64,000 nucleotides of DNA from Nocardioides mangrovicus (GTDB lineage Bacteria > Actinomycetota > Actinomycetes > Propionibacteriales > Nocardioidaceae): positions 502,085-566,084 of the forward strand of contig NZ_RDBE01000007.1 in the NCBI RefSeq assembly GCF_003674065.1. Reading direction: 5' to 3'. Numbering within the stretch: position 1 is the first letter of the stretch; the number at the start of each line of letters is the position of its first letter. Positions 54,668 to 55,997 of this stretch are shown here, piece by piece. Made by a program: the position numbers and the translations under genes. The notes beneath the pieces are model-generated. The model did no database searches. It was not told where the DNA came from and was given only the letters and a program-made list of their open reading frames with translations.

Positions 54668-54871
54668 CGATGCTCCAGAAATGGTCGGTATGTCCGATCT
54701 TCACACTCGGCAGGTCGTTCTGCCAGCATCTTCACCGAACGACGCGTCCCAGGCGCGTACATCGGACCGTTCGTGCCCGCACGTCTAGTCCGTTGGGGCT
54801 ATGCGGGCCAGCCGAGGACGCGGTTCGAGGGCCCCGATGAGGCACCGGGCTCGTTCTCGTGGGAGGCTGGT

Positions 54872-54993
54872 CTCCGGTGGAGGGGAGTACTCCCTCGCGG
54901 GTGTGTCGTCACCACGGTCCGTCCCGGACCCGGCACCCCGGCCCGCGCCAGCGGGTGGAGGAGACCTCCGGAGCATCGTCGTCTCCGGAGAGG
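54872..54993 (+). promoter_or_regulatory. Probable yybP-ykoY manganese riboswitch upstream of terC
   Basis: The two conserved halves of the yybP-ykoY aptamer are present: L1 GGAGUA (54884-54889) after AGG, and the L3-side RAGACCU as GAGACCU (54961-54967). P1 would pair UGGAGG (54878-54883) with CCUCCG (54965-54970). Between them, GC-rich sequence can form the P2-P4 stems. Downstream, CTCCGGAG at 54966-54973 can instead pair with an identical self-complementary copy at 54983-54990 that covers most of the GGAGAGG ribosome site (54987-54993). This predicts translational control: Mn binding favours P1 and frees the ribosome site. yybP-ykoY elements are known to control TerC-family genes. Confidence 0.72.
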
Positions 54994-55001
54994 TCTGTGT
55001 C

Positions 55002-55997
55002 ATGGATGTTGCTTCCTGGGTCTGGTGGACCACGCTGGCGGTCACCTCGGCCATCTTGCTGTTCGACGTCGTCGTCATCGGCCGGCGTCCGCACGAGCCG
55101 TCGATGAAGGAGTGCGGCATCGCGCTCGGCGTCTACGTCGGGCTCGCCGTCGCGTTCGGGGTGGGTGTGTGGGCCATCGCCGGCCACCGGTTCGGCACCG
55201 AGTTCTTCGCGGGCTGGCTCACCGAGTACTCGCTCTCGATCGACAACCTGTTCGTGTTCATCATCCTGCTCGGCAAGTTCGCGGTGCCGAAGGAGTACCA
55301 GCAGACGGCGCTGATGGTCGGCATCGTGCTGGCGCTGGTGATGCGGGGCATCTTCATCGCCGTCGGCGCCGCGGCGATCAACGAGTTCTCCTGGGTCTTC
55401 TACCTCTTCGGCCTGTTCCTGCTCTGGACGGCGTTCAAGCTGGCCAAGGAGGGCGCCGAGGACGAGGACGAGGACGACTTCGAGGAGAACCGGCTGGTCA
55501 AGCTGGCCACGCGCCACCTGCCGGCCACCGAGGAGTGGACCACCAACAACATCGTGGCCAAGGTCGGCGGCAAGCGCGTCGTCACGCCGATGTTCTTCGT
55601 CATCCTCGCGCTCGGCACCACCGACCTGCTCTTCGCGCTGGACTCGATCCCGGCGATCTACGGGCTCACCAAGGAGCCCTACCTGGTGCTCACGGCCAAC
55701 ATCTTCGCCCTCATGGGACTGCGGCAGCTCTACTTCCTGATCGGCGGGCTGCTCCAGCGGCTCGTCTACCTCTCCTACGGACTGGCGTTCCTGCTGGCCT
55801 TCATCGGCGTCAAGCTGGTGCTGCACGCGATGCACGAGAACGAGCTGCCGTTCGTCAACGGTGGCGAGCACATCTCCTGGGCGCCCGACATCCCGATCTG
55901 GCTCTCGCTGCTGGTCATCGTGGGCACGCTGGCCGTGACCACCGTGCTCAGCCTGGTGGCCAGCGGCCGCCGCGATCGGGCGGCGGCCCAGAGCTAG
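55002..55997 (+). CDS. TerC family integral membrane protein (Alx-like manganese exporter)
   Basis: 331 residues, about nine membrane helices. Start ATG 55002, 8 nt after GGAGAGG; the frame is open upstream but that stretch is the riboswitch. Family signature: WTTLAVTSAILLFDVVVIGR, TEYSLSIDNLFVFIILLGKFAVP (conserved Asp-Asn), ALVMRGIFIAVGA, a cytosolic acidic loop EDEDEDDFEENRLVKLATRHLP, TDLLFALDSIPAIYGLTKEPYLVLTANIFALMGLRQLYFL (second conserved Asp), AFIGVKLVLHAM. TerC/Alx proteins export or handle Mn2+ and relate to tellurite tolerance. The riboswitch supports Mn2+. Confidence 0.93.
   Translation: MDVASWVWWTTLAVTSAILLFDVVVIGRRPHEPSMKECGIALGVYVGLAVAFGVGVWAIAGHRFGTEFFAGWLTEYSLSIDNLFVFIILLGKFAVPKEYQQTALMVGIVLALVMRGIFIAVGAAAINEFSWVFYLFGLFLLWTAFKLAKEGAEDEDEDDFEENRLVKLATRHLPATEEWTTNNIVAKVGGKRVVTPMFFVILALGTTDLLFALDSIPAIYGLTKEPYLVLTANIFALMGLRQLYFLIGGLLQRLVYLSYGLAFLLAFIGVKLVLHAMHENELPFVNGGEHISWAPDIPIWLSLLVIVGTLAVTTVLSLVASGRRDRAAAQS

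Follow-up and report, generated by a model that had tools for sequence, protein, structure and literature searches.

A terC RNA motif is known from Proteobacteria, where it lies upstream of terC genes and constitutes a separate Rfam family. The leader considered here has its closest described relatives in the yybP-ykoY class, of which the E. coli alx and mntP leaders are reported Mn2+ riboswitches (PMC9603457). The mntP leader is a translational Mn-on switch (PMC9603457), whereas the X. oryzae member is transcriptional (PMC6754395). The mntP, L. lactis, and X. oryzae RNAs have in common with the present element an L1/L3 core, an invariant Mn-binding adenosine, and a P1.1 switch helix (PMC6754395). 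The adenosine, located in L3 loops of the sequence UCA41AUUC in L. lactis and ACA48UACU in X. oryzae, contacts Mn2+ via N7, and in the X. oryzae RNA Mn2+ stabilizes the P1.1 switch helix against strand invasion (PMC6754395). The L. lactis and X. oryzae RNAs have four-way junctions in the crystallized form (PMC6754395), whereas the element described here is a three-way junction, and a three-way-junction member of the class has been described in a review (PMC9495176). The leader of the C. glutamicum terC gene cg2157 is likewise actinobacterial, was annotated as yybP-ykoY, and was seen in RNA-seq, but it differs in having been reported with the 2013 RF00080 model at 49 bits (PMC3890552). Corynebacterium and Streptomyces members are also cited in PMC8164766. 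Throughout the papers searched, Mn riboswitches of high-GC Actinobacteria receive only passing mentions. Three-way-junction, translational, and actinobacterial members were known before, and the element reported here is an unannotated member.

The window, i.e., the whole 64,000-nucleotide stretch of Nocardioides mangrovicus DNA that was analyzed, carries on its + strand (54877-54970) a terC leader element with the anatomy of a three-way-junction aptamer (P1, L1, P2, P3/L3, and P4). We read this leader as a yybP-ykoY-class Mn2+ riboswitch, similar to that of E. coli alx, which forms a three-way junction and switches translation on, and we put the probability of this reading at roughly 0.88. Four parts of it are directly supported: the structure is conserved, both alternative stems covary, the copies are associated with terC and GDT1 genes, and the element is homologous to that of E. 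coli alx. The presumed regulated gene, 331 aa long, starts at ATG 55002 (55002-55997; the ORF is also given as 55002-55994). An earlier note on this DNA, made from the letters, had called it terC, and this identification held, as the protein matches PF03741 (TerC/Alx; E 3.1e-51) and the NCBIfam model TIGR03718 (R_switched_Alx) at 369.9 bits against a cut-off of 246.4.

Conserved structure of the terC leader

The earlier note had pointed to two conserved aptamer words and to a P1 helix of UGGAGG with CCUCCG, and all of these are present in the window at the places and in the order and spacing that it gave: GGAGTA, preceded by AGG, at 54884-54889, and GAGACCT, preceding CC, at 54961-54967. P1 pairs its 5' strand GGAGG (54879-54883) with 54965-54969, and a U54878-G54970 wobble adds to it. 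The L1 internal loop between P1 and P2, a feature of the class, consists of GGAGUA (54884-54889), which is near-invariant in the 24 family leaders described below and corresponds to the conserved yybP-ykoY L1 position (PMC6754395), and of GAGA (54961-54964), part of a near-invariant GAGACC. Alignment to the covariance model gives P2 as CUCC (54890-54893) paired with GGAG (54957-54960). Within the junction lie the P3 arm with its L3 loop (54898-54940), where the pair list has two-sided changes in 6/9 helix pairs, and the P4 hairpin (54941-54956), with two-sided changes in 5/5 pairs. The L3 motif, UCG-UCACCAC (54906-54915), belongs to a UCG-UCA-NCAC consensus in which the adenosine after UC is invariant in alignment A1 and is followed by four more loop residues; relatives have UCAUCAC. 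This residue, A54911, is the predicted Mn-contacting adenosine and the predicted counterpart of A41 in L. lactis and A48 in X. oryzae.

One pattern with the same order of elements was found in 24 of the 30 leaders of terC orthologues in the family, namely UGGAGGGGAGUAUUCCUUCGC, then a P3 stem with UCGUCAUCAC, a hairpin, and GGCGGAAGAGACCUCCGGA. Alignment A1, which comprises 24 family leaders and was made without structure, yields a consensus of P1, L1, P2, P3/L3, and P4 around a three-way junction, with 94.0% of cells paired and two-sided changes in 15/27 pairs, a result that none of 500 shuffles reaches. Alignment A2 contains 85 sequences, nearly all from named genomes, aligned to the covariance model R1; its counts of 95.4% of cells paired and two-sided changes in 19/27 pairs (0/500 shuffles) lean to the model, having been fitted to it. 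The covariation score of A2 is 0.444 versus 0.179 for shuffled alignments and at most 0.110 for slid structures. P1 is paired in 98.1% of A2 cells, with two-sided changes in 3/5 pairs, and P2 in 96.5%. The near-invariant L1 and the P1 that covaries in A1 and A2 bear out the earlier assignment of both. The three-way junction of P2, P3, and P4 is backed by covariation, and the docking of the L1 and L3 legs is predicted. Because the same ordered elements recur in 24/30 leaders and the derived structure covaries, the pattern is more than chance. Folding of the single sequence would not have revealed it, since the folding energy of the terC leader is not unusual (z = -0.82); the single-sequence minimum free energy was set aside as a guide, the best fold not being the aptamer.

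Homology to E. coli alx and the Rfam control

The covariance model R1 was built from 24 Nocardioidaceae terC leaders, including the window sequence and no proteobacterial sequence, so its match to the predicted aptamer (54877-54970; 83.0 bits, E 5.3e-16) is not independent, the window being a training sequence. With R1 the E. coli alx leader scores 35.2 bits (E 8.9e-7 in 6.5 kb, which by arithmetic scales with length to about 6e-4 for the whole genome), and the alignment covers P1, L1, L3, P3, and the GAGACCU strand. The alx leader shares with the window element P1, the GGGGAGUA...GAGACC L1, an L3 of UCGUCAU, a short P2-P3 junction, and a terC/alx target, and it differs in a longer P4 and another platform sequence; the window form has a high GC content and a P1 3' strand that would pair straight across the Shine-Dalgarno (SD) sequence. 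R1 gave no match at E<=10 to E. coli mntP, which has an extra hairpin after L1, and is therefore an alx-type model and not a whole-class model. The detection of alx by R1 makes the element homologous, in sequence and structure, to an established yybP-ykoY member. The class named in the earlier note thereby gains the backing of the L1/L3 core, the covariation, and the R1 homology.

Against the class stands the result with the Rfam family RF00080, which did not match the window at its gathering score, nor the local stretch at E<=10. Run on the whole genome, it found nothing at the place of the terC leader; at relaxed E-values it matched none of 15 sibling leaders, and of the Rfam families overall, none matches the terC leader meaningfully. 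The earlier note had proposed this search and named the lack of a significant hit as refuting. The search did come out negative, but the E. coli leaders, used as a control, take away its force: with Rfam 15 RF00080, mntP reaches 41.6 bits where the cut-off is 45 bits, and alx goes unreported at E<=1. Because the same model puts mntP below the cut-off and misses alx, its failure to match here is uninformative; the absence is non-diagnostic and concerns a database criterion, not a structural one. The RF00080 consensus in the printed alignments pairs neither P1 nor P2. As a side observation, it seems that part of the aptamer has gone missing from the Rfam 15 'Manganese' model.

The predicted Shine-Dalgarno-sequestering stem

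The P1 3' strand, CCUCC (54965-54969), can pair either with the P1 5' strand or with the SD region, and as the strand common to P1 and to the SD-sequestering stem it would be the switch strand. The word CTCCGGAG occurs twice in the leader, at 54966-54973 and 54983-54990, with a spacer of 9 nt. The two CUCCGGAG copies are 100% complementary to each other; the first would act as the anti-SD arm, and the second, which spans the terC ribosome-binding site, is the SD-containing arm in the predicted folds. Beyond an AG bulge, GGUC after copy 2 pairs in these folds with GACC before copy 1, lengthening the stem. The SD itself, GGAGAGG (54987-54993), lies 8 nt 5' of the ATG, and most leaders have a GGAGG equivalent at the same place.

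We compared the two arms across 114 terC leaders. Cognate duplexes of the P1-3' arm with the SD arm have a mean energy of -17.8 kcal/mol, versus -15.7 kcal/mol when the arms are permuted among the 114 leaders (0/5000 as low) and -10.4 for composition shuffles. With the stem anchored on the SD by the core GGAGG only, pairing beyond the core amounts to 281 versus 247 +/- 8 permuted in unique rows (0/2000), and its third position is A-U in 19, C-G in 18, and U-A in 10. Permutation leaves shared ancestry in place, but the re-pairing, seen as it is in several genera, is difficult to account for in any other way. The re-paired stems include CCUUCGGUC/GACCGAAGG (L045), CCUUCGGCUGA/UCAGCCGAAAGG (L125), CCUCCGAGAC/GUCUCGG-AAGG (L086), and CCUUCGGAG/CUCCGAAGG (L095). 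A minority of leaders, e.g., L050, L052, L106, and L088, are without a good stem, and the start codon lies anywhere from 23 to about 100 nt beyond the aptamer end. Judged from these comparisons, the P1-3'/SD stem is a conserved, covarying platform, mutually exclusive with P1. The earlier note had proposed a check of the paired segments in orthologous leaders, and they prove conserved, both P1 and the SD stem covarying (n=114 for the latter). Its idea that P1 and an SD-hiding stem exclude each other is supported, and a Mn-on translational switch would probably work in this way. Its view of the palindromic duplicate as an unusual platform did not survive. The exact 8-mer pair is present in only 11/114 leaders, so a conserved function of the word was rejected. 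Other leaders form this stem with non-palindromic arms (e.g., CCUCCGGUC/GACCGGAGG), and the palindrome is an incidental by-product of UCC preceding a GGAG-type SD.

Transcripts probably begin at the aptamer itself, at about 54874-54876 in the window, because TAnnnT motifs in 132 leaders pile up 11-17 nt 5' of the aptamer (44 of the 57 matches in 60 nt). A consensus promoter scan of the window found none; relatives that align with the window have TGGGAGGATGG or TGGAACAATGG where it has GAGGCT (54862-54867, + strand), which is therefore a weak, probable -10 box. An alternative pairing of GGUCUCC (54869-54875) with GGAGACC (54960-54966) was set aside because this start leaves most of the former strand untranscribed.

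Without Mn2+, the P1 3' strand CCUCCGGAG, with the GA before it, would pair with CUCCGGAGAGGUC and bury the SD. Mn2+ would dock L1 (GGAGUA/GAGA) on L3 (UCACCAC, with A54911), and the docking would stabilize P1 so that the 3' strand is held there, the SD is freed, and the TerC membrane protein is made. Three elements of this account are inferred: that Mn2+ is the ligand, which way the switch goes, and that it acts on translation and not on transcription. Computed from the start proposed above, the anti-SD state is favored without ligand (-66.1 versus -59.2 kcal/mol), which fits a default-OFF, Mn-on switch. Since this gap of about 7 kcal/mol to OFF is large for metal binding alone, switching may be kinetic, i.e., co-transcriptional. 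The predicted ON state leaves the SD incompletely exposed, with GGA at 54987-54989 still paired in some folds.

Distribution, targets, and other readings

R1 at E<=0.01 matches 135/247 genomes of the class and 56/103 genera, whereas RF00080 has nothing above its cut-off in the same 247 genomes; the sub-threshold RF00080 matches in the class fall at R1 matches. Within the genus, 22 of 24 genomes carry the element, and within the phylum 39 of 198, 26 of them outside the class. Carriers include Marmoricola, Nocardioides, Mycobacterium, Mycolicibacterium, Saccharopolyspora, Streptomyces, Kitasatospora, Kribbella, Cellulomonas, and Microbacterium, among others. Although the class is thus widespread in actinobacterial genomes, the reference model has no match above its cut-off among those searched. 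Annotation with a corrected model would cover many genomes and bring new regulon members, one of them a protein of unknown function in which a role in Mn handling could be tested. As a conserved element, the P1-3'/SD stem offers a translational switch that can be tested directly. We found no description of the extent of the current model's misses or of the covarying P1-3'/SD platform, which, coming from an incomplete literature search, is weak evidence that they are new. For a wider proposal we see the balance as even: these leaders might form a large, coherent actinobacterial Mn2+ riboswitch sub-type, invisible to Rfam, that is a main translational Mn sensor of Actinomycetes, including mycobacteria and streptomycetes, and that also controls genes with no known link to Mn, such as the Microbacterium protein and the CaCA exchangers below.

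Downstream genes were recorded for 120 copies, picked by score or exact pattern, so that the proportions are not an unbiased census: 107 are terC and 4 are GDT1, i.e., 111 of the 118 checkable copies, two ending where the available sequence stops and the remaining seven preceding other genes or none that is clear. Two copies (L063:1487-1601 and L064:1487-1589) precede Na+/Ca2+ exchanger (CaCA) genes (PF01699), one (L121) precedes an amino-acid-permease-like gene under the Pfam cut-off, and one from an uncultured actinobacterium (L112:5327-5416) is followed by a gene that, judged by eye, resembles a tripartite tricarboxylate transporter (TctC-like). Downstream of the L057 copy there was no clear gene. 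Two Microbacterium copies (L129:4619-4712 and L083:7025-7119) precede an uncharacterized gene, MVSFSRLFDLA..., with no Pfam match, which is a candidate new Mn-responsive protein family.

The N. mangrovicus genome holds a second copy (L080:1554-1660, equal to G000:C2:215753-215859) about 90 nt 5' of a GDT1/UPF0016 gene (PF01169), with its SD in a possible hairpin. R1 finds only these two copies in the whole genome and leaves a second TerC gene (G000:C3:253080-253655) and a second GDT1 gene (G000:C19:758785-759336) unmarked. The predicted targets of both copies, terC and GDT1, agree with the control of Mn homeostasis genes that is a feature of the class. The UPF0016 protein MneA is a Mn exporter in Vibrio, where terC and mneA are Mn-induced behind yybP-ykoY (PMC13274385). 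The role of terC here need not be export alone, because B. subtilis TerC proteins are described as metalating exported enzymes (PMC10550928). As a separate observation, the P1 3' strand of the GDT1 copy would instead seem able to pair with CUGGUCGAAGG, an intermediate segment, which raises the possibility of a two-step platform.

The same aptamer fold could have a main physiological ligand or signal other than Mn2+, e.g., Ca2+, Cd2+, or alkaline pH. In E. coli, alx and mntP are responsive not only to Mn but also to alkaline pH (PMC9603457), the S. pneumoniae mgtA member, a three-way junction, has a higher affinity for Ca2+ than for Mn2+ according to a review (PMC9495176), and the two copies before Na+/Ca2+ exchanger genes point the same way; the conserved Mn-contacting adenosine and L1/L3 core nevertheless make such a signal improbable, as does the presence of Mn exporters in the families of both targets in this genome. 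A leader that works via transcription attenuation or Rho access, and not via SD sequestration, would have a precedent in transcriptional yybP-ykoY members such as that of X. oryzae (PMC6754395). Yet no terminator-like site was found in the leader, and in nearly every leader the alternative stem has its end at the SD, with which it covaries, so that we consider this mode quite improbable as well. The ordinary folding energy (z -0.82) and the lack of an RF00080 match would suit a chance resemblance, i.e., a plain ribosome-binding-site hairpin in GC-rich sequence and no riboswitch, but class-wide conservation, compensatory changes, and the fact that the derived model picks up E. coli alx leave that account with next to no credibility.

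Outside the copies counted above, the exact pattern had no match in viral contigs. MAGs labelled Blastococcus and Modestobacter have divergent pairs of elements adjoining terC (L105:1894-2255 and L139:1204-3719), with three copies in the latter.
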